A stretch of DNA of 64,000 nt from positions 2,514,001 through 2,578,000 of the forward strand of contig NZ_VCBX02000001.1 of NCBI RefSeq assembly GCF_005938745.2. Reading direction: 5' to 3'. Positions 1 to 14,822 of this stretch are shown piece by piece. The notes under the pieces were generated by a model. That model saw only the letters and a program-made list of their open reading frames with translations, was not told where the DNA came from and ran no database searches. Every line of letters starts with the position of its first letter. Position 1 is the stretch's first letter. The DNA comes from Rhodococcus sp. KBS0724 (GTDB taxonomy: Bacteria > Actinomycetota > Actinomycetes > Mycobacteriales > Mycobacteriaceae). Both the position numbers and the translations under genes were made by a program.

Positions 1-3000
1 TCGGTCTGACCAACGCCGGCTGTACCGGACAACTGCCGCAGACGGTTCCGTGGCTGGTGCTCGACGACCGGGTCACTGCTGCCGAGATCGCGGGTTCCCC
101 CGAGACACCGGTGACCGACCGGGAACGGACGGCAGTACTTCACATCGATCATCCGGCCTACGTGATTTACACGTCCGGGTCGACCGGGATTCCGAAAGGT
201 GTGGTGGTGCCGCACCGAGGGGTGTTCGACCTTACGACGGAACTATGCACACAACTTTCGACTGGGCCACAGGCGCGTGTATTGCACTGTGCATCTCCGA
301 GTTTTGACGCGTCGGTGTTCGAATTCGTGTGGGCGTTCGGTGCGGGCGGACGATTGGTGATCGCCCCGCCAACGATGTACGGAGGTGGCGAACTCACAGC
401 GCTACTCGATCGCGAGCAAGTCACACATGCCATCCTCACGCCATCCGCCCTGGCATCGCTGGACCCCGCAGGGCGCGCATCGCTTCAATGCCTTGTTGTT
501 GCAGGAGAAGCGTGTTCGCCGGAGTTGGCGGGGCGGTGGTCGCCTGGTCGGTTGATGTTCGACGCCTACGGCCCGACAGAGGCGACGGTCATGGCAAATA
601 TCAGGGTGATCGAGCCGGGCAGCGAGTTACTGACTCTCGGAGGTCCGATCCGCGGCGTCGAAGAAGTAGTACTCGACGATCGGTTGCGGCCGGTACCGGT
701 CGGAGTGGTCGGAGAGTTGTATCTGGCCGGCGTCAGCTTGGCGCGTGGCTATCGGAACCAGATGGGAACAACAGCGTCGAGGTTTGTGGCGGATCCGTTC
801 GGATTGCCGGGGCGCCGTATGTATCGCACCGGGGACACGGTGCGCTGGCGCCATGATCGGCAGGGCAGCCTGACACTCGAGTACTTGGGCCGCAACGATT
901 TTCAAGTCAAGGTTCGTGGTTTCCGGATCGAACTCGGCGAGATCGATGCGGTAATGGCCGATCATCCGACCGTCGCTTTTGCGATCACCCTCGGACGCGT
1001 CGAAACCCACGGAAACACGACACTGGCGTCGTACGTGCTTCCGGCTGACGACCACGAAGTCGACCCAGCCGAATTGCGAACCCACGTGCAGGGATTGCTA
1101 CCCGACTACATGGTGCCGGCAACAATCACCGTGCTCGACACTATTCCGCTGACCCCGGTAGGGAAGCTCGATCGCGGCGCGCTGCCCGAACCAGATGTGG
1201 GGGCATCGAGCACCGCCTTCCGGCAGCCGCGAACTCCGATCGAGGAGACCATCGCCGGTATTTTCGGCGAGGTGCTGGACGTCGATCGCCTCGGCGCCGA
1301 CGCGCACTTCTTCAACCTCGGTGGCAATTCCCTGAGCGCGACCAAAGCAGTGGCCCGGATCAATTCAGCACTGAATGAGGGAATTGGCGTCCGGGACCTG
1401 TTCGACGCACCCACCGTGGCTGCGCTGGCCGAGTGGATCGAGCGGACCGACGGAAGGACATCCGTGGGGCCTGCTTTGGTGGCAGGTGTGCGACCCGAGA
1501 GAGTTCCGGTGTCCCTCGCCCAGCATCGCATGTGGCTCGTCAATCAGTTGGACACGTCGTCGCCCGCGTACAACATTCCTATCGCGCTCCGGCTGGCCGG
1601 TGAACTCGATATCGACGCTTTCCGAGCCGCGTTGACAGATGTCGTCGAGCGTCACGACACCCTTCGCACGGTGTACCCCGGATCGCCGGACGGTCCGCTC
1701 CAAGTGGTTGTTCCAACAGCTCAGGTATTGCCGGATTTGAATCCGCTCGAGGTGGCGAGTGAGAGCGAGCTGTCCGGGCACATCGAGCGGCTCGCGTCGT
1801 CCGGGTTTGATGTCACAGGCGAAGTCCCCGTGCGGATTGCGTTGTTCAAGGTCGGCCCAGAGCAGCACGTTCTGGTTATTGTCGTGCACCATATCGCCGC
1901 GGACGGTTCGTCGATGCCACCGCTGGCCCGCGATGTGATGACGGCATACACCGCGCGCGTGAACTGGCGTATTCCGGATTGGGCGCCGCTTCCCGCGACG
2001 TATGCCGATTACACGCTGTGGCAGCGTCGCCTGCTCGGCGTCGAATCCGATCCGGGTTCGCTTGCCGGCGAGGAGCTCACGTACTGGCACCAGGCGCTGT
2101 CGGGGTTACCGACTGTCCTGCCGTTGCCGACGGATCGAGCCCGCCCGACCTGGCGTCGGATGCGGGGAAGCGCGGTGCAGTTCGAGATCGACGCCGGCTT
2201 GCATCGCGCGCTGCAACATATTGCGCGCAAACATGATTCGACGATGTTCATGACCATGCATGCAGCGCTCACCGTCCTGCTCAGCCGGTTGAGCGGGACT
2301 GACGACATCGCGGTGGGCACACCGGTGGCCGGGCGTGGTGAGGCTGCACTCGACAATATGGTCGGCATGTTCGTCAACACCGTGGTGCTGCGGACGGCAG
2401 TAACACCCAGGTCACCTTTCGAGGATGTGCTTCGGACGGTTCGGGAGGGTGATCTGGGAGCTTTCGCTCACGCACAGACCCCGTTCGAGCAAGTGGTCGA
2501 GACGATCGATCCGGCCCGCTCGACGGCACACTCACCGTTGTTCCAGGTAATGCTCGAGTTCAGGAATGCCGCATTGCCGGAATTGGTGCTGCCGGAGTTG
2601 ACCGTTGAACTTCTCGACATCGACATCGAGGTAGCCCGGTACGACCTGCACCTGAGTCTCGCCGAGCAATTCGATACCGCCGATGGTTCGCCGGCCGGAA
2701 TATCTGCGTCCTTCGGCTTTGCCGTCGACATCCTCGATTCGGCTACGGTGCAGAGTTTCGCCGAACGATTCGTCCGCGTACTGGAGGAGATCGTGGCTGC
2801 GCCGTCAACCCGCGTCGGAGATATCGAACTCCTCTCGCCTGCGGAGTGTGGTGAGTTGGTTCCGGTGTCGGGGGCTTCGGGTGGGCGGGTGTTGGTGTTG
2901 CCGGAGTTGTTGGCTGTGGGGGCAGTAGATCGGTCGGCGATCGCTGTTGTCTGTGGTGGTCGGAGTGTGTCGTATGGGGAGTTGGATGTTTGGTCGAATC

Positions 3001-6000
3001 GGTTGGCGCGGTTGTTGATTGGTCGGGGTGTTGGTCCGGGTTCGTGTGTTGTGGTGGCGTTGTCGCGGTCGGTGTTGTCGGTGGTGGCGTGGTGTGCGGT
3101 GGTGAAGTCGGGGGCGGCGTTTGTGGGGGTGGATCCGGGGTATCCGGCGGCGCGGGTGGAGTTCATGGTTGCGGATTGTGGTGCGGTGGTGGGTGTGACG
3201 GCGGCGGAGTGTGTGGGGGTGTTGCCGGGTTCGGTGCAGTGGGTGGTGTTGGATGGTCCTGGTTTTGAGGGGGTGTTGGCGGGGTTTGATGGTGGGCCGG
3301 TGTCGGATGTGGATCGGGTGTCTGTGGTGTATCCGGGTGGGGCGGCGTATGTGGTGTATACGTCGGGGTCGACGGGGGTGCCGAAGGGTGTGGTGGTCTC
3401 GCATCGGGGGTTGGCGGATTTGGTTGCGGATCAGTGTGTTCGGTTCGGGCTAGATTCCAATTCTGTGGTGTTGCATGCGGCGTCGCCGGGTTTTGATGCT
3501 GCGGTGTTGGAGTTGTTGTGGGGGTTGGGTTGTGGTGGTCGGTTGGTGGTTGCTCCGGCGGGGGTGTTTGGTGGGGATGAGTTGCGGGGGTTGTTGGTGG
3601 GGGAGAGGGTTTCTCATGTTGCGTTGACGCCGACGGTGCTGGGGACGGTGGATCCGTCCGGTCTCGAGGATCTCTCGACTGTGGTGGTGGGGGGTGAGGT
3701 GTGTTCGCGGGAGTTGGTGGCGCGGTGGGCTGTTGGTGGTCGGGTGGTGGTGAATACGTATGGTCCGGCGGAGGCGAGTGTGCAGTCGAATGCGAGTGCT
3801 GCGTTGGTGGTGGGGGAGCCGGTGTTGTTGGGTGGTCCGATTCGGGGTGTGGGGGAGGTTGTGTTGGATGGTTGGTTGCGTCCGGTTCCGGTGGGTGTGG
3901 TGGGGGAGTTGTATCTCTCGGGTGGGGGTTTGGCGTGGGGGTATGTGAATCGGGTGGGGTTGACGGCGTCGCGGTTTGTGGCTGATCCGTTTGGTGGTTC
4001 GGGTTCTCGGATGTATCGGACGGGGGATGTTGTTCGGTGGCGGCGGCTTGCGGATGAAAGTTTGTCGTTGGAGTTTGTGGGTCGTGGGGATTTGCAGGTG
4101 AAGGTGCGTGGGGTTCGGGTGGAGTTGGGGGAGGTGGAGTCGGCGTTGTCGGGGTGTGTGGGGGTGGCTCGGGCTGCTGTTGTGGTGCGGGGGGATCGGT
4201 TGGTGGGGTTTGTGGTTGCGGAGTCGGGTGTGAGTGTGGATGTTTCGGTGGTGGTTGATTCGGTGGCTGGGCGGTTGCCGTCGCAGATGGTGCCGGCTGT
4301 GGTGGTGGTGGTTGATGGGTTGCCGGTGACGCCGAATGGAAAGCTGGACCGCGACGCCCTACCCACCCCAAGTTTTGATGACCGACTGAGCACATTCATC
4401 GCTCCGGCAACCGAGATGGAATCTGCGCTGGCAGGGTTGTTCGAGGAAGTGCTGGGACTCGAATCGGTAGGCGCGGGAGATTCGTTCTTTTCTCTCGGCG
4501 GCGACAGTATCGTCGCGATTCAGTTGGTCTCTCGGGCGAAGGCCTCTGGAATCGTTTTCTCGGCGCGGGATGTGTTCGAGCATAAAACGGTGGCTGGGTT
4601 GGCGGAGGTTGCCGTCTTCGGTGATGGAACGGAGGCAGTCGGATTGGACGAACTGCCTGGGGGCGGGGTCGGTGAGGTTCCGTTGACGCCGACAATGCGA
4701 TGGCTCCTCGAACGGGGCACGGGATTCACTCGCTTCTCACAAGCCGTGATGCTCAACCTTCCGGCCGGAATCGACGAACCGGGCCTGGAGGGCACCGTGC
4801 AGGCGGTGCTCGATCATCACGACATGCTGCGGGCTCGGCTACGGCCACAAGCCGATGGCGGTTGGACGTGGGAAGTGTTGCCGGAAGGTGTGATTCGAGC
4901 GGACAGCCTCATCTGCCGGGTGCCGATGCAGGGGAACCTGGGAAGTTCCCAGTTCAGTGACCACGCCGCTGCGGAGTTGGATGCTGCGGCTGATCGGCTT
5001 GATCCCAGCACGGGCGCTGTGGTGCAGGTGGTGTGGTTTGATCCCCCGAATGCCGGCGAGCAGGGTTGCGCGTTGGTGGTGGCACATCATTCGGTGATCG
5101 ACGGGGTGTCGTGGCGGGTGCTGATACCCGACCTGGCAACCGCGTGGTGGCAGATCGCGGCTGGAATGGAACCAGAGTTGCCCGCGGTCGGAACGTCGAT
5201 GCGGCGGTGGGCTCATGGACTGGTAGACGAGGCTCGTCGGCCCGAGCGCGCAGCCGAACTCGAGCTGTGGCGAGCTATGAGCGTCGGGGACGATCCGGTG
5301 ATCGGGTCGCGGCCCCTCGACCCTTCGGTCGATGTGAACGGCTCGACAGATCATGTTTCCGTCGAATTGCCCACCGACGTGACAGAAGCGCTGCTGACCA
5401 CAGTTCCCGAAGCATTTCACGGTGGGGTCAGCGACGGGTTGCTGGCTTCGTTGGCGGTTGCGGTCACGCAATGGCGGCGAGATCGCCGGCCGATATCGAC
5501 CGATGCTCCGATTGCCACAACACTCATTGCGCTGGAAGGTCATGGGCGAGAGGAGAACGCGGTCCCTGGCTCGGATCTGAGTCGTACCGTCGGCTGGTTC
5601 ACCACGAGCTTTCCACTGCGGCTGGATCTTGCGTCCGTCGATATCGACGATGCGTGCGCGGGCGGCCCGGCCTTGGCGGCCGCCGTCAAAGCCGTCAAGG
5701 AACAGATCCGGACCGTACCCGATCACGGAATCGGCTTCGGGTTGTTGCGGTATCTGAACGAGGACACCGCTTTTGAGCTGCAGGATTTGCCGACACCGCA
5801 GATCGGATTCAATTATCTGGGGCGCGTCGAGGCAATATCCCCGGGCGGATCTCAGCCGATCGGATGGGCGCCGCTCGATGATGGTGACACGCTCGCCGAC
5901 CCCCGGCGTGGCGGTGCGCAGGATCCCGACATGCCAGTCGCGAACGTGCTGGAGATCAACGCCATGACTCTCGGTGGCTCGCGTAAGCCACGATTACACG

Positions 6001-9000
6001 CGACGTGGACTTTCCCTGTCGGAGTGTTGACCACCGACGAGGTGAGTGAGCTGGCGCGGCTGTGGACCGAGGTGTTGACTGCCCTGACCCAGCAGCCTCT
6101 CGGCGGGCGAACGCCGTCGGATCTGGACTTGGTCGGTCTCGGCCAAGGTGAGATCGAGATGCTCGAGGATCGGTACCCCGCGTTGAGTGATGTGTGGCCG
6201 CTGTCCCCGCTGCAGGAAGGTTTGCTGTTCCATACGCTGCTGTCCGAGGAGTCGGTGGACGCGTACGTCGTCCAGTTGGCCGTTGAATTGCGCGGTGACG
6301 TTGATTCGGATCGCCTGCGTCAGGCAGGACAAGTGCTGCTTGACCGCTATCCGAATCTGCGGACCGCATTCGACTCCGACCTCGAATTCGGGCCGGTGCA
6401 GGTTGTCCAGGAAGACCTGACAGTCGTGTGGTCTGAAATGGACCTGTCGGAACTTGACGAGGAAGCACGTCAGCGTGAATTGGATCGGGTGATGGCTGCT
6501 GACAGAGCGCACCGTTTTGATCCCGTGCGTGCCCCACTGCTGCGCTGGTTGCTCATCACTACGGGCACGGAGAGCTACCGCTTGGTGATGACCAATCATC
6601 ATCTGCTGCTCGATGGTTGGTCGACCCCTCTCTTGTTGCGCGAACTGCTAGTGGCCTACGCGGCAGGTGAAGACGCCTTGCCGAGGGCGTACCCGTACCG
6701 CGACTACCTGGCGTGGATCAACCGGCAGAACACAACAGAATCACTTGACGTGTGGGCGAAGGCATTTGACGGTGTCGACGAGCCGACGTTGGTTGCGTCG
6801 GGTGATCCTGCTCGTCGGTACAGCGGGTCGCGGGATGTGTTCGGTGAGTTGACCGAGGATCAGACGGTGGCGTTGTTGTCGTGTGTTCGGGGTATGGGGG
6901 TCACTGTGAATTCGGTGATCGAGATGGCGTGGTCGATTGTGTTGGGTGGGTGGACGTCTCGTGATGATGTGACGTTCGGTTCGACGGTGGCTGGTCGTCC
7001 TCCGCAGGTTGCGGGGGTGGAGTCGATGATCGGTTTGTTTGTCAATACGGTGCCGGTGCGGGTTCGGTTGGATCGGGGGGAGACTCTTGGTTCGCTTCTT
7101 TCTCGGATTCAGGGTGAGCAGGCTGGTCTTCTTGATCATCAGTATGTGGGTTTGGCGGATATTCAGCGGGTTGCGGGTGCTGGTGCTGTGTTCGACACGA
7201 TGACGGTGTTCGAGTCGTATCCGGTGGATCGTGGTGGGTTGACTGCGGAGACGGATATTGCGGGTATGCGGGTGGTTGATGTCGGTGGTGTTGATGCCGC
7301 ACACTATCCGATCGGCGTTGTTGCGCACCTGGACAGCCGACTGCATATCAGAATCAAGTATCTGCCGGAGCTTTTCGACTACGGCACAATCGGCAGTGTT
7401 CTGCAGCGAGTTTTGCGCGTCGTCAACGCCCTTGTTTCAAATCCTGATCTGCCACTTGCGGCGCTGGACGTGCTTTCGCCGGAGGAACACCGGGAACTGG
7501 TCCCGGTTCAGGGTGAGATGTCCGCGAAAGAACATGTGCTGCCGGAATTACTGTCGGCTGCGCGGGACCCGGATGCGGTTGCTGTGGTGTCTGGTGGTTG
7601 GCGGTTGTCGTATGGGGAGTTGGATGTTTGGTCGAATCGGTTGGCGCGGTTGTTGATTGGTCGGGGTGTTGGTCCGGGTTCGTGTGTTGTGGTGGCGTTG
7701 TCGCGGTCGGTGTTGTCGGTGGTGGCGTGGTGTGCGGTGGTGAAGTCGGGGGCGGCGTTTGTGGGGGTGGATCCGGGGTATCCGGCGGCGCGGGTGGAGT
7801 TCATGGTTGCGGATTGTGGTGCGGTGGTGGGTGTGACGGCGGCGGAGTGTGTGGGGGTGTTGCCGGGTTCGGTGCAGTGGGTGGTGTTGGATGGTCCTGG
7901 TTTTGAGGGGGTGTTGGCGGGGTTTGATGGTGGGCCGGTGTCGGATGTGGATCGGGTGTCTGTGGTGTATCCGGGTGGGGCGGCGTATGTGGTGTATACG
8001 TCGGGGTCGACGGGGGTGCCGAAGGGTGTGGTGGTCTCGCATCGGGGGTTGGCGGATTTGGTTGCGGATCAGTGTGTTCGGTTCGGGCTAGATTCCAATT
8101 CTGTGGTGTTGCATGCGGCGTCGCCGGGTTTTGATGCTGCGGTGTTGGAGTTGTTGTGGGGGTTGGGTTGTGGTGGTCGGTTGGTGGTTGCTCCGGCGGG
8201 GGTGTTTGGTGGGGATGAGTTGCGGGGGTTGTTGGTGGGGGAGAGGGTTTCTCATGTTGCGTTGACGCCGACGGTGCTGGGGACGGTGGATCCGTCCGGT
8301 CTCGAGGATCTCTCGACTGTGGTGGTGGGGGGTGAGGTGTGTTCGCGGGAGTTGGTGGCGCGGTGGGCTGTTGGTGGTCGGGTGGTGGTGAATACGTATG
8401 GTCCGGCGGAGGCGAGTGTGCAGTCGAATGCGAGTGCTGCGTTGGTGGTGGGGGAGCCGGTGTTGTTGGGTGGTCCGATTCGGGGTGTGGGGGAGGTTGT
8501 GTTGGATGGTTGGTTGCGTCCGGTTCCGGTGGGTGTGGTGGGGGAGTTGTATCTCTCGGGTGGGGGTTTGGCGTGGGGGTATGTGAATCGGGTGGGGTTG
8601 ACGGCGTCGCGGTTTGTGGCTGATCCGTTTGGTGGTTCGGGTTCTCGGATGTATCGGACGGGGGATGTTGTTCGGTGGCGGCGGCTTGCGGATGAAAGTT
8701 TGTCGTTGGAGTTTGTGGGTCGTGGGGATTTGCAGGTGAAGGTGCGTGGGGTTCGGGTGGAGTTGGGGGAGGTGGAGTCGGCGTTGTCGGGGTGTGTGGG
8801 GGTGGCTCGGGCTGCTGTTGTGGTGCGGGGGGATCGGTTGGTGGGGTTTGTGGTTGCGGAGTCGGGTGTGAGTGTGGATGTTTCGGTGGTGGTTGATTCG
8901 GTGGCTGGGCGGTTGCCGTCGCAGATGGTGCCGGCTGTGGTGGTGGTGGTTGATGGGTTGCCGGTGACGCCGAATGGAAAGCTGGACCGCGACGCCCTAC

Positions 9001-12000
9001 CCACACCGGATTTTGCCGGCGTTCGGACTGATTTCCGGGCTCCTGTCACCGAGGTGGAATCGGTATTGGCCGGGTTGTTCGAGGAAGTACTCGGGCTCGG
9101 ATCAGTGGGCGTGGAGGATTCGTTTTTTGCGCTCGGCGGCGACAGCATCATGTCGATTCAGCTCGCAGCACGGGCAAAGGCTCAGGGAGTGGTCATCTCC
9201 CCGCGGGATGTGTTCGAACGTAAGACGATTGCCGGACTGGCGGAGGTAGCAGTTCTTTCGGGTGAGGCCGACGTAGCCAGGTTGGAGGAATTGACCGGCG
9301 GCGGGGTCGGTGACGTTCCGTTGACGCCGATAATGCAGTGGCTCGTCGGTCGGGGTGGTACAGGGTTCCATCGATTCTCGCAGGCGGTGCTGCTGAATTT
9401 GCCGGCGGGAATCGACGAGCAGGGTTTGGCGAGCACGGTGCAGGCGGTGCTCGATCATCACGACATGCTGCGGGCTCAGTTGCGCCCAGGTGCACACGGA
9501 TCGTGGGTCTGGAAAGTCCTGCCCGTCGGATCAATTCAAGCAGAGAAGGTGATTCGGAAGGTATCGGCCGGGCCAGGCGTCGCCGATTTCCGTGAGGTGG
9601 CTGCGTGCGAGTTGGACGCCGCAGCGGATCGGCTTGATCCCAGCACGGGCGCCGTGGTGCAGGTGGTGTGGTTTGATCCCCCGAATGCCGGCGAGCAGGG
9701 TTGCGCGTTGGTGGTGGCACATCATTCGGTGATCGACGGGGTGTCGTGGCGGGTGCTGATACCCGACCTGGCAACCGCGTGGTGGCAGATCGCGGCAGGT
9801 AGATCGCCGGAACTGGAGCCGGTCGGAACATCGATGCGCCGCTGGTCCTACGGGCTTGCGCAGGAGGCTCGTCGACCGGAGCGGGCAGCCGAACTCGAGC
9901 TGTGGCAAGCGATGGTTGTGGGCGAGGACCCCGTGATCGGATCCCGGCCCATCGACCCTTCCGTCGACGTGACTACCACTGCCGACACTGTTGAGATTGA
10001 AGTCTCCCCGGAGACAACTGAGGCACTGCTCACCACAGTTCCCGAAGCATTCCACGGTGGTGTCGTCGACGCACTACTGGCGGCACTGGCGGTTGCGGTC
10101 ACGACGTGGCGGCGCGAAGATAACCCTTCCCTCGCAGATATTCTCATCGGTCTCGAGGGTCATGGACGTGAAGAAGGTGTGGTTCCAGGTTCGGATCTGA
10201 ATCGTACCGTCGGCTGGTTCTCCACGAGCTTCCCACTGCGGTTGGATCTTTCGGATATATCTCTGAGCGACGCCGCCGCTGGTGGTCCGGCCTTGGGTGC
10301 CGTGGTCAAATCTGTCAAGGAACAACTCCGGGCGATACCGGACCACGGGATCGGCTACGGATTGCTGCGGTATCTCAACGAGGACACCGGATTGGTGTTG
10401 GGGGAGTTCCAAACACCGCAGATCGGCTTCAACTATCTCGGCAGGGTTCGTGCAGGTGAAGTGTCAAACGAGTCCGGTGCAGCCTGGATTCCGATCAACG
10501 GAGACATCGAGCTGGGCGGTGCACAGAATCCGGATATGCCGCTACCAGCCGTTCTCGACATCAACGCACTCACCGTCGAAAGTGACGACGGCAGGCCGAG
10601 ACTGCGCGCAATCTGGTCGTTCCCCACAGGCATACTGGCGAAGAGCGACGTTCAGGCGGCCGCGAGAATGTGGTCGGAAACGCTTGCGGCGCTGGCCGCA
10701 GACGCCGGGCAACCGGGCGTCGGAGGACGAACGCCGTCGGATCTGGACTTGGTCGGTCTCGGCCAAGATGAGATCGAGATGCTCGAGGACCGGTACCCCG
10801 CGTTGAGTGATGTGTGGCCGTTGTCCCCGCTGCAGGGAGGTTTGCTGTTCCATGCGCTGGCGTCGGCAGGGTCGGTGGACGCCTACTTGGTGCAGTTGGT
10901 TGTCGAATTGCGGGGTGAGGTTGATCCGGAGCGATTGCGCGGTGCTTGCCAATCGGTGCTCGATCGCAATCCGAATCTGCGGACCGCCTTTCTGTCCGAC
11001 ACCGGATCTCAGCCGGTTCAAGTGGTGCAGGATGGCGTCGAAGCACCGTGGTCGGAGATCGACCTTTCGGGATTGGACACCGCCGCGCGTGTTCGTGCTT
11101 GGGATCATCTGATGGCGGAGGATCGTGCCACCCGGTTCGATCCGACTCGGGCCCCGTTGTTGCGGTGGATGCTGGTCAGCACCGGCCCGGGAAGCTATCG
11201 CCTGGTGATGACCAATCATCATCTGCTGCTCGATGGTTGGTCGACGCCGCTACTTCTGAAGGAATTGCTGGTGCTCTATGCCACCGACGGCGCGACACTA
11301 CCCCGGGTCCGTCCTTATCGGGACTTTCTGGCCTGGGTCGCCGGGCAGAACAAAACAGAATCACTTGACGTGTGGGCGAAAGCATTTGACGGTGTCGACG
11401 AGCCGACGTTGGTTGCGCCGGTTGATCCTGCTCGTCGGTACAGCGGGTCGCGGGATGTGTTCGGTGAGTTGACCGAGGATCAGACGGTGGCGTTGTTGTC
11501 GTGTGTTCGGGGTATGGGGGTCACTGTGAATTCGGTGATCGAGATGGCGTGGTCGATTGTGTTGGGTGGGTGGACGTCTCGTGATGATGTGACGTTCGGT
11601 TCGACGGTGGCTGGTCGTCCTCCGCAGGTTGCGGGGGTGGAGTCGATGATCGGTTTGTTTGTCAATACGGTGCCGGTGCGGGTTCGGTTGGATCGGGGGG
11701 AGACTCTTGGTTCGCTTCTTTCTCGGATTCAGGGTGAGCAGGCTGGTCTTCTTGATCATCAGTATGTGGGTTTGGCGGATATTCAGCGGGTTGCGGGTGC
11801 TGGTGCTGTGTTCGACACGATGACGGTGTTCGAGTCGTATCCGGTGGATCGTGGTGGGTTGACTGCGGAGACGGATATTGCGGGTATGCGGGTGGTTGAT
11901 GTCGGTGGTGTTGATGCCGCACACTATCCGATCGGACTGGTCGCTCACGTCGACTCGGTGGTGCGCCTGACAATCAAGTATCTCCCAGATCTCTTCGACC

Positions 12001-14822
12001 ACAGTGTGATAGACGAGATGATGCAATGCGTCCTCCGCGTCATCGACGCAGCAGTCACAGAACCGGATCTGCCAATCGGCGCACTGAATTTACTCTCGCC
12101 TGCGGAGTGTGGTGAGTTGGTTCCGGTGTCGGGGGCTTCGGGTGGGCGGGTGTTGGTGTTGCCGGAGTTGTTGGCTGTGGGGGCAGTAGATCGGTCGGCG
12201 ATCGCTGTTGTCTGTGGTGGTCGGAGTGTGTCGTATGGGGAGTTGGATGTTTGGTCGAATCGGTTGGCGCGGTTGTTGATTGGTCGGGGTGTTGGTCCGG
12301 GTTCGTGTGTTGTGGTGGCGTTGTCGCGGTCGGTGTTGTCGGTGGTGGCGTGGTGTGCGGTGGTGAAGTCGGGGGCGGCGTTTGTGGGGGTGGATCCGGG
12401 GTATCCGGCGGCGCGGGTGGAGTTCATGGTTGCGGATTGTGGTGCGGTGGTGGGTGTGACGGCGGCGGAGTGTGTGGGGGTGTTGCCGGGTTCGGTGCAG
12501 TGGGTGGTGTTGGATGGTCCTGGTTTTGAGGGGGTGTTGGCGGGGTTTGATGGTGGGCCGGTGTCGGATGTGGATCGGGTGTCTGTGGTGTATCCGGGTG
12601 GGGCGGCGTATGTGGTGTATACGTCGGGGTCGACGGGGGTGCCGAAGGGTGTGGTGGTCTCGCATCGGGGGTTGGCGGATTTGGTTGCGGATCAGTGTGT
12701 TCGGTTCGGGCTAGATTCCAATTCTGTGGTGTTGCATGCGGCGTCGCCGGGTTTTGATGCTGCGGTGTTGGAGTTGTTGTGGGGGTTGGGTTGTGGTGGT
12801 CGGTTGGTGGTTGCTCCGGCGGGGGTGTTTGGTGGGGATGAGTTGCGGGGGTTGTTGGTGGGGGAGAGGGTTTCTCATGTTGCGTTGACGCCGACGGTGC
12901 TGGGGACGGTGGATCCGTCCGGTCTCGAGGATCTCTCGACTGTGGTGGTGGGGGGTGAGGTGTGTTCGCGGGAGTTGGTGGCGCGGTGGGCTGTTGGTGG
13001 TCGGGTGGTGGTGAATACGTATGGTCCGGCGGAGGCGAGTGTGCAGTCGAATGCGAGTGCTGCGTTGGTGGTGGGGGAGCCGGTGTTGTTGGGTGGTCCG
13101 ATTCGGGGTGTGGGGGAGGTTGTGTTGGATGGTTGGTTGCGTCCGGTTCCGGTGGGTGTGGTGGGGGAGTTGTATCTCTCGGGTGGGGGTTTGGCGTGGG
13201 GGTATGTGAATCGGGTGGGGTTGACGGCGTCGCGGTTTGTGGCTGATCCGTTTGGTGGTTCGGGTTCTCGGATGTATCGGACGGGGGATGTTGTTCGGTG
13301 GCGGCGGCTTGCGGATGAAAGTTTGTCGTTGGAGTTTGTGGGTCGTGGGGATTTGCAGGTGAAGGTGCGTGGGGTTCGGGTGGAGTTGGGGGAGGTGGAG
13401 TCGGCGTTGTCGGGGTGTGTGGGGGTGGCTCGGGCTGCTGTTGTGGTGCGGGGGGATCGGTTGGTGGGGTTTGTGGTTGCGGAGTCGGGTGTGAGTGTGG
13501 ATGTTTCGGCGGTGGTTGATTCGGTGGCTGGGCGGTTGCCGTCGCAGATGGTGCCGGCTGTGGTGGTGGTGGTTGATGGGTTGCCGGTGACGCCGAATGG
13601 AAAGCTGGACCGCGGCGCCCTACCCACCCCCGACTTCGATGCCCAGCGCGCAGAATATCGGCCCCCTCGGGAGGGGGCGGAATCCGCCGTCGCCGCGGCG
13701 TTTGAAGGTGCACTCGGTGTATCGCGAGTGGGTGCCGACGACAATTTCTTTGCGCTCGGGGGTGATTCGTTGACTGCCACCACAGTGGCCGCGAGATTGC
13801 ATGAATCGATCGAGGCCGACGTGCCGGTTCACTGGATTTTCACCGACTCGACACCCGCGACTTTGGCGCACAGAATTTCGACGTGCCCAGCGGAGACGAA
13901 CGACGCGGTGGGGGTTCTGCTTCCACTGCGGGCCAAAGGAAATCGTGATCCACTGTTCTGTGTCCACCCAGCGATCGGGCTGGCGTGGTGTTTCAGCGGC
14001 TTGGTGCAGTACGTGGACAGTGACCGCCCGATCTACGGAATCCAATCGCCCGCCCTGACAGATTCATCCGTACATTTCGATTCGCTCGACGATCTTGCGG
14101 CCCGCTACGTTCGAGAGATTCGATCCGTACAGCCACACGGGCCGTACCATCTGCTCGGATACTCGGTGGGCGGCCAGATTGCACATGCAATGGCGGCCCA
14201 GCTTCGTCGTGACGGTGACGACGTTGCAACGCTCGCGATGATGGACAGTCGTCTGATGTCCGCGACCGACGCCCCGATGCCGTCCGTCTCACGACTCGTC
14301 ACCGAGTTCGCCGAGGTGGATCTATCCGACGAGCCCACGGAGGAACCCACGTTCGATCAGGTTGCGGAGTTGTTGCGCCGCAAGGGCGGATTCTTCGCGA
14401 TGCTGACGGCAGACCATCTCGAGACTTTGTATCGGCAGTACAACAATCTTGTCGATGATGCTGTGGCGCACCATCCGTCAAATCTCGATGTGTCGGATCT
14501 TCTCTACTTCAGCACCACGCTGGAATCCGGCGAAGCCGATCGAAACGGAAAACCCGAAAACTCGACGGGTGCCGCGGACTGGACGGACTACATCAGGGGC
14601 GACATTCACGAGTACATGATCCCCACGACGCATGAGCAGATGACGGGCCCTCCAGGTCTGGCGGTCATCGGTCCGATCCTGAATCGCTACCTGGCTTCGG
14701 GTGAACTAGTGACCGGCGCCGAGTTCGATGAGGACAACACCGCCGGCAATCAGCGCAATACCCAGCATCATGAGCTTCGTCAGGGCCTCGCGAAACAGGA
14801 TTCGAGACGCGAGGGCAGTTAA
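1..14822 (+). CDS. Multimodular non-ribosomal peptide synthetase, C-terminal part (5' end outside window)
   Basis: The reading frame is open from base 3, giving 4939 visible residues. Domain order by nucleotide: A1 (to ~1190), T1 (~1215-1470, carrier Ser codon 1329), C1 (~1500-2810, HHxxxDG at 1887), A2 (~2832-4366), T2 (Ser 4506), E1 (HHxxxDGxSW at 5085), C2 (HHxxxDG at 6597), A3 (~7550-9004), T3 (Ser 9144), E2 (HH at 9720), C3 (HH at 11217), A4 (~12093-13627), T4 (Ser 13767) and a type I thioesterase (GYSVGG, Ser codon 14163; candidate His in HEQM). C2 and C3 follow E domains and should be D-L condensing; C1 should be L-L. The predicted chain end is X-(D)Y-(D)Y-(L)Y with the same Y three times, because A2-A4 are nearly identical. 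My manual alignment to GrsA gives a pocket of D-A-L-A-V-G-T-V-Q-K for A2-A4 and D-A-F-I-V-A-A-V-M-K for A1. I cannot assign either to a substrate. The A5 motif in A2-A4 is YGPAE instead of YGPTE. Codon use in the A2-A4 blocks is unlike the flanking modules. Confidence 0.97.
2832..4369 (+). repeat. NRPS adenylation-domain repeat, copy 1 (module with C1)
   Basis: This segment encodes nearly all of A2. It matches 12093-13630 over 1538 bp with only two differences seen (at 13510 and 13615 of the other copy). From 2968 to 4366 it also matches 7606-9004 with no difference noticed. The block is strongly G+T biased on the coding strand: in 3001-3060, 52 of 60 bases are G or T. Normal base use returns abruptly at the NGKLDR (A10) motif near 4338. 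The spacings of 4638 and 9261 bp between copies are multiples of three. Confidence 0.95.
4992..5160 (+). repeat. NRPS epimerase-core repeat, copy 1
   Basis: These 169 bp around the HHxxxDGxSW motif of E1 match 9627-9795 of E2 with a single silent difference noticed. The surrounding E-domain DNA is clearly diverged. The patch has ordinary composition, unlike the A repeats. Confidence 0.9.
6741..7315 (+). repeat. NRPS C-domain half repeat, copy 1
   Basis: This is the C-terminal half of C2. It matches 11361-11935 with only a handful of differences near its 5' end. From about 6860 it has the same G+T-rich codon style as the A repeats, so the unusual DNA covers the back half of C and then, after a unique linker, the A domain. 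Confidence 0.92.
7606..9004 (+). repeat. NRPS adenylation-domain repeat, copy 2
   Basis: This segment encodes A3 and is read as identical to 2968-4366 and, apart from the base corresponding to 13510, to the third copy. The match starts about 140 bp later than the copy 1/copy 3 match, because the preceding linker (about 7316-7605) is different sequence. The right border is again just after the A10 motif. Confidence 0.95.
9627..9795 (+). repeat. NRPS epimerase-core repeat, copy 2
   Basis: This is the E2 counterpart of 4992-5160 and covers the catalytic His motif. The short perfect patch inside otherwise diverged domains looks like a gene-conversion tract. Confidence 0.9.
11361..11935 (+). repeat. 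NRPS C-domain half repeat, copy 2
   Basis: This is the C-terminal half of C3, matching 6741-7315. After 11935 the linker diverges from the first copy until the A repeat begins. C1 does not carry this repeat, as expected for a different condensation subtype. Confidence 0.92.
12093..13630 (+). repeat. NRPS adenylation-domain repeat, copy 3 (terminal module)
   Basis: This segment encodes A4 and matches copy 1 across its full 1538 bp. Base 13510 is C where copy 1 has T (Val to Ala), and base 13615 is G where copy 1 has A (Asp to Gly). The left border lies in the C-A linker at the sequence for LSPAECGEL. Confidence 0.95.

Follow-up and report, generated by a model that had tools for sequence, protein, structure and literature searches.

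GRINS were reportedly described in 2021 in PNAS, and we know of no explanation of their origin or of the reason for their recombination. In the excerpts from which the literature cited here and below was drawn, they are defined as repeats of about 1 kb or longer which share >80–90% identity within the same synthase and exhibit GC and TA skews above 0.15–0.25 (PMC10394414; PMC9899208). They are linked to gene conversion, are commonest in actinobacteria and are described in PKSs and PKS-NRPS hybrids (PMC10394414; PMC9899208). A second related phenomenon is the concerted evolution of assembly lines, in which domains group by gene cluster and not by position. The A domains of the daptomycin, A54145 and CDA synthetases are named in this context, and divergence is described as alternating in cycles with internal recombination, from which there is escape; strand skew is not described in the excerpted text (Medema et al., 2014; PMC4256081). 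Finally, A domains serve as exchange units in natural recombination (PMC8097286; PMC7486941; PMC9205934), and nucleotide skew is given as common to duplicated NRPS genes (Booth et al., 2022; PMC9205934). Among the matches listed for GRINS or skew in NRPSs, as far as the excerpts go, there was no report of GRINS in NRPS A domains, which is not proof of absence. The locus presented here combines GRINS and concerted evolution, both of a known kind, in NRPS A domains.

The window, i.e., the whole analyzed stretch of 64,000 nucleotides from Rhodococcus sp. KBS0724, opens within an NRPS gene. Its open frame (3..14822, plus strand) comprises the 3′ 4,939 codons of a whole frame of 5,770 amino acids, the 5′ end of which lies outside the window. 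The visible domain order is A1-T1-C2-A2-T2-E2-C3-A3-T3-E3-C4-A4-T4-TE (Table 1). Ten ORFs were scanned after the NRPS (window 15932–41803), among them an M24 peptidase, a CobB/CobQ-like amidotransferase, a peroxidase, COX1, an alkyl sulfatase and TetR. They resemble genes of general metabolism and regulation, and the cluster may therefore extend upstream, beyond the window.

Table 1. Features of the NRPS gene, in window coordinates.
Feature	Position	Strand	Remarks
A1 domain	3..1187	+	cut by window start; unskewed, not homogenized
GRINS copy 1	2832..4369	+	end of C-A linker and whole A2, to just past the A10 motif; G/T third-position segment 2835–4337
E2 epimerization domain	4671..6077	+	HHSVID
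Second repeat, copy 1	6780..7295	+	C-terminal part of C3; third positions 92% G/T
GRINS copy 2	7581..9004	+	A3 domain; G/T third-position segment 7551–8975
E3 epimerization domain	9309..10685	+	HHSVID
Second repeat, copy 2	11400..11915	+	C-terminal part of C4; third positions 92% G/T
GRINS copy 3	12093..13630	+	end of C-A linker and A4; G/T third-position segment 12096–13598
TE domain	13923..14702	+	unskewed

The initial annotation had described three blocks of this gene as the same base for base apart from two differences in the third. In fact, 2968–4366 and 7606–9004 show 0 differences over 1,399 bp, and 12229–13627 carries 2, both of which are missense (GTG/GCG, Val/Ala; GAC/GGC, Asp/Gly). 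The stretch common to copies 1 and 3 is longer and covers the 1,538 bp given for each in Table 1, with 2 differences and an exact run of 1,417 bp. Copies 2 and 3 are 99.4% identical over 1,424 bp from 7581. The 5′ edge is located in the C-A linker in copies 1 and 3 and at the start of the A domain in copy 2, and the 3′ edge lies just past A10 in all copies. The rest of the gene had been called normally diverged. This applies to the T, E, and C domains at large, whose identity between modules is 55.7–82.9%, but not to the second repeat in C3 and C4, where 514 of 516 positions are identical (exact 513-bp run from 6803 to 7315) within 1.2 kb of sequence at 86% identity.

Similar edges recur in 19 sibling pairs from several NRPS families, where 14 tracts start 39–102 bp before the A-domain profile and 13 end at most 17 bp from its end, with 12 doing both. 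These 12 of 19 tracts span the region from the linker to about A10, whereas excerpts on natural A-domain recombination report mostly Acore exchanges which spare the C-A linker and the Asub-T interface (Baunach et al., 2021; PMC8097286). They lie near the productive boundary of linker plus A domain (Calcott et al., 2020; PMC7486941). In contrast to natural A-domain recombination, the exchanges here homogenize. The tract boundaries, from the C-A linker to A10, represent natural exchange points and are relevant to peptide synthetase engineering.

The main feature of the A blocks, missed by the initial annotation, is their strand skew. On the coding strand, the A2, A3, and A4 blocks exhibit a GC skew of +0.555 to +0.567 and a TA skew of +0.567 to +0.587 per A domain, rising at third positions to 0.91–0.92 and 0.90–0.92, respectively. 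Elsewhere in the gene, GC and TA skews are 0.055 and 0.027 in the part of A1 inside the window, and −0.026 and 0.013 in TE. G or T occupies 97–98% of the third codon positions in the three block segments as opposed to 53–59% in four other parts of the gene, and T closes 60 of the 64 two-fold pyrimidine codons of the block versus 187 of 456 in those four parts. The edges of the skew approximately match the edges of identity and nearly coincide with the A domain.

The blocks thus resemble GRINS in size, identity, skew and signs of conversion: they are located inside an assembly-line synthase gene with C, A, T, E, and TE domains, measure 1,399–1,538 bp at 99.4–100% identity (set against at least 500 bp and >80%, often >90%) and exceed the skew values of the working definition, with the 516-bp second pair likewise long and similar enough. 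They differ in that they lie in an NRPS, on A domains and part of C. The blocks are very probably GRINS in a four-module NRPS, A-domain-sized, almost confined to G and T at third positions and mutually overwriting by gene conversion. Conversion (or selection) favoring G/T on the coding strand would remove A and C, and the equal specificity of the A domains may make exchanges tolerable.

Collapsed or mis-polished repeats might mimic such blocks, particularly as the repeats are longer than short reads and were judged from assembled sequence. However, the flanks of the copies differ, and all three lie on a single 6.69 Mb contig; copy 3 is set apart by its 2 missense sites and copy 2 by a separate 5′ edge at 7581. 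Moreover, 14 of 20 loci of other assemblies (most of these loci having been picked for paired hits) contain A-domain-sized repeats of at least 98% identity, comparable tracts are present in the single-contig genome G007, and a census of 132 domains agrees. An assembly artifact is hence barely credible.

An orthologue search among 28 genomes of the genus revealed the same domain order in four further genomes, namely Rhodococcus globerulus (G008), G003, G004, and G021. A2, A3, and A4 are 98.0–99.9% identical within the focal genome (G000) and 90.6–94.0% within R. globerulus, but 83.0–86.6% between the two. The remaining domains follow their position: between the two genomes, identity is 84.0% for E2–E2, 84.5% for E3–E3, 85.9% for T2–T2, and 84.8% for TE, whereas E2 and E3 of the focal genome are 73.1% identical, and its E2/E3 and T2/T3 pairs at 73–75% fall below their positional R. 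globerulus orthologues (84–86%). Between species, the A domains thus diverge about as fast as the remainder of the gene, yet they are equalized within each. As befits gene conversion, the skewed A domains are closer within than between genomes, and the T and E domains are not. Since R. globerulus has its own homogenized blocks, conversion recurs or persists across speciation. Sequence comparison thus demonstrates intragenic conversion, either recurrent or continuing.

The proposal of a recent homogenization accordingly stands as far as conversion between modules is concerned but not as a single event, since R. globerulus homogenized its own set separately. According to a one-event reading, a single recent homogenization or module duplication produced the blocks, and the skew is incidental. 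This would agree with the 0–2 differences in 1,399 bp of the focal genome. It is already contradicted by the R. globerulus set, as well as by the separate pair in each of eight genomes of a second family and by the flanking E and T domains, which are nearer to their positional orthologues than to each other. The association of skew with near-identical siblings in the census (12 of 12 versus 1 of 120) is hardly incidental either, which leaves this explanation highly improbable. A recent duplication of whole modules is disfavored because the flanking domains follow position between the two genomes.

In G003, G004, and G021, A2, A3, and A4 are 70–75% alike, group by position with 89–94% identity between genomes, and have a weaker third-position GC skew (0.30–0.43). 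Conversion in these genomes has apparently stopped or is much older. The diverged A domains indicate that the homogenized state is not obligatory. One gene is therefore represented by homogenized (G000 and G008) and diverged (G003, G004, and G021) orthologue sets, which distinguishes it from the case described in the excerpts of Medema et al. (2014; PMC4256081).

A2, A3, and A4 of the focal genome and R. globerulus share the code DALAVGTVQK, and A1 reads DAF(I/V)VAAVMK (code positions numbered after GrsA). The substrate of DALAVGTVQK might be a large or aromatic residue, a guess from known codes. The equal codes, together with two modules whose E domains keep HHxxxD, are in line with the initially predicted peptide with three equal residues, two of them epimerized; Ser is present in all four T motifs. 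The accompanying idea that homogenization had settled all three positions on one amino acid is one of two possible readings. In G003, G004, and G021, the same code type is found at A2 and A4 (DALAVGTIQK) but not at A3 (DAFVMALIWK), and in Nocardia, seven of the nine loci with a complete set of four modules have a DALA-type code at A3, and none has one at A2 or A4 (four of these loci were re-read). In one comparison, Rhodococcus A2 (from G004) is 69% identical to A3 of Nocardia nova versus 50% to its A2 or A4. A3 may either have been overwritten in the line of G000 and G008, or have escaped and changed in G003, G004, and G021; the Nocardia data weakly favor the latter. The A3 code in any case differs between orthologue sets, which may bear on GRINS as diversifiers of products.

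Concerted evolution extends beyond the focal gene. A second NRPS family in eight genomes contains two skewed A domains which are 98.7–100% alike within each genome and 81.7–98.1% alike between genomes (first copies). In its tree, the copies group by genome in all eight cases (one at modest support, 84/61), whereas the 15 T domains that come after a copy separate according to position (support 100/100). This pattern, copies by genome and flanks by position, is found in the second family as well as in the identity matrices of the focal gene. In G012, the ninth genome with the pair, the frames are broken, and it was excluded from the counts. Its locus (L052, G012:C1:1490001–1510000) contains the family-2 NRPS in several frames with many gaps between the repeat copies, representing either a pseudogene or sequencing indels.

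The third family exhibits the reverse distribution. In G014, G016, and G025 (L060–L062), its copies show 99.6–100% identity and strong skew; they are weakly skewed in the focal genome (G000:C1:3803776 and 3811651; 77% over the whole domain, 79% over the core) and in R. globerulus, where the pair is 74% alike. Rhodococcus NRPSs thereby offer a natural series in which orthologous domains are skewed and homogenized, partly diverged or diverged, and two gene families with opposite states in different species allow direct tests of cause and direction. A further pair lies in two NRPS genes of the focal genome 24 kb apart (L041 and L042, G000:C1:4579993–4581198 and 4603903–4605108), consisting of 100% identical, strongly skewed A domains; its R. 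globerulus orthologue is 96.7% identical.

The link between skew and identity was assessed in a census of 132 NRPS A domains of G000, G007, and G002. Both skews exceed 0.25 in 12 of 12 domains with a sibling of at least 90% identity, versus 1 of 120 without. The census took TIGR01733 matches over the cut-off independently of their likeness to the block, although G002 and G007 were picked after repeated hits had been seen there. It read 132 of 133 typed matches, the excluded one being a focal-genome domain partly beyond the stretch read; two short fragments of domains already counted were left untyped. In a similarity-chosen set of 157 A domains in 39 regions, 36 of 36 siblings are skewed, a percentage which is biased since most of the loci (one of them a flank) had been selected as matches to the skewed block. 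One focal-genome A domain (L043, G000:C1:4611718–4612959) is skewed (0.32/0.38; third-position TA 0.90) and lacks a sibling of more than 65% identity. In R. globerulus, the A domain in a comparable place has about as much skew; this might reflect a relic or a lost partner. The GRINS signature is also seen in PKS AT domains of G050, a genome of the same order, with 100% identical pairs at a third-position GC skew of 0.77–0.99. Here, the link is looser, as 2 of 14 siblings with at least 90% identity have a GC skew of only 0.17–0.18; another AT cluster, 81–82% alike, shows 0.10–0.19. The value of these data lies in the natural orthologue series and in a test of fixation bias; the phenomenon is both genuine and broader than the initial annotation had it.

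The fixation-bias test compares silent third-position differences within and between genomes. Within genomes, differences of G/T versus A/C account for 13 of 13 in the second family and 37 of 52 in R. globerulus (focal family). Differences fixed between genomes of the second family comprise 65 G–T, 24 G/T-versus-A/C, and 2 A–C changes (p = 4e-7 against those within genomes), and the contrast persists after trimming of the 3′ edge (7 of 7 within versus 65:19 fixed, p = 8e-5). The focal family shows 16 fixed G–T differences versus 8 of G/T versus A/C (p = 0.002 against R. globerulus within-genome differences). In an E and TE control, G–T changes constitute 23 of 491 differences. The inter-gene pair of G000 and G008 revealed no fixation bias, with G–T to G/T-versus-A/C ratios of 10:8 within and 14:12 fixed, and at positions 1 and 2 there was no significant fixation bias in any family. 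Polarized singletons in R. globerulus include 17 silent third-position changes that start from G or T, and 12 of them lead to A or C. As new changes bring in A or C and fixed differences are mostly G versus T, A and C are removed over time in two of the three families. This suggests that in these two families mutation erodes the skew and something restores it, which may be biased conversion or selection.

These directions also bear on an explanation in which a local mutation bias, for instance deamination of cytosines on the exposed coding strand or a bias linked to transcription, writes the skew, and conversion is a by-product of low complexity. Both skews exceed +0.25 in 49 of the 157 A domains while the lone GC value below −0.2 is −0.21, so that strong skew is in excess with one sign. 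Protein composition also follows the skew, with 22.3% Val and 15.0% Gly in 36 strongly skewed A domains versus 11.0% and 8.9% in 83 unskewed ones. However, where the three weakly skewed orthologues all have C at a four-fold site, the skewed block has far more G than T (G:T = 14:4 against A2 and 15:4 against A4), unlike the C-to-T changes of deamination, which is therefore disfavored as the source; this comparison assumes that the weakly skewed orthologues represent the older state. Given further that the polarized R. globerulus changes mostly leave G/T, a mutational origin is unlikely. Alternatively, the skew could be maintained by selection at the RNA or protein level, through translation, R-loops or G-quadruplexes. 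Coding-strand G-quadruplex motifs indeed average 1.56 per skewed A domain (36 domains) versus 0.00 per unskewed domain (84 domains). However, the focal block contains none, leading to the rejection of G-quadruplexes as a common cause, and weakly skewed orthologues retain open reading frames, which makes selection of this kind very unlikely.

With conversion between GRINS as the preferred reading, a mechanism was considered in which GRINS drift into an alphabet to which mismatch repair is blind, thereby evading NucS; we regard it as tentative and rather unlikely. EndoMS/NucS is a non-canonical mismatch repair system (PMC8228993; PMC11551767; PMC5290159), whose in vivo repair in Mycobacterium smegmatis is, according to the excerpts, limited to G-G, G-T, and T-T (PMC11551767) and which cuts recombination between 85–95% identical repeats 3- to 10-fold (PMC5290159). 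The focal genome encodes NucS (PF01939 match, G000:C1:2084271–2084633), and no TIGR01070 match to MutS1 was found in it (a control profile matched in 11 of 14). Copies restricted to G and T would differ only as G versus T, and the mismatches in their heteroduplexes would then all be G-A or T-C and escape NucS, allowing diverged copies to recombine freely. A difference of G/T versus A/C would be visible to NucS in only one strand polarity. Should the incoming strand for the most part be the one pairing with the lagging-strand template, co-directional genes would end up with the G/T version, and conversion and skew would reinforce one another.

With all codon positions counted, the fixed differences visible to NucS number 194 of 413 in the second family versus 459 of 563 in control flanks (two of four genome pairs), and 80 of 123 (65%) in the focal family versus 473 of 615. 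This contrast appears to support the NucS-blind mechanism in part. The 80 visible differences of the focal family count against it and may be due to constraint at the protein level. As far as is known, cyanobacteria, firmicutes, and eukaryotes mostly lack NucS. GRINS nevertheless occur, less often, in cyanobacteria, firmicutes, and some eukaryotes (PMC10394414), and NucS repair is reportedly independent of RecA and NHEJ (PMC11551767); both points, taken from excerpts, argue against the mechanism. Among the matches listed in separate searches on the two terms, again in excerpt, there was no published link between GRINS and NucS, the link being proposed here.

With regard to the replication strand, skewed synthases are co-directional with replication in 13 genomes (G000, G001, G002, G003, G006, G007, G012, G014, G018, G019, G024, G047, and G050). 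Fork direction was placed by hand from dnaA, and in G000 additionally from a perfect dif-like site, while elsewhere the terminus was assumed to lie opposite the origin; the G002 locus is near its presumed terminus. Head-on synthase domains are few, comprising four AT domains of G050 (4.54–4.56 Mb) and one A domain of G000 (0.588 Mb), and they have neither a sibling nor strong skew. The loci read include no skewed head-on case, so that the sign of the skew may or may not stem from the replication strand. In the focal genome, a gene with mildly negative skew lies about 5–28 kb from the dif-like site, where the direction of the fork is uncertain. Two A domains at most 10 kb from this site (position 3309842), at G000:C1:3314445–3318833 (L044 and L160), have third-position GC skews of −0.44 and −0.60.
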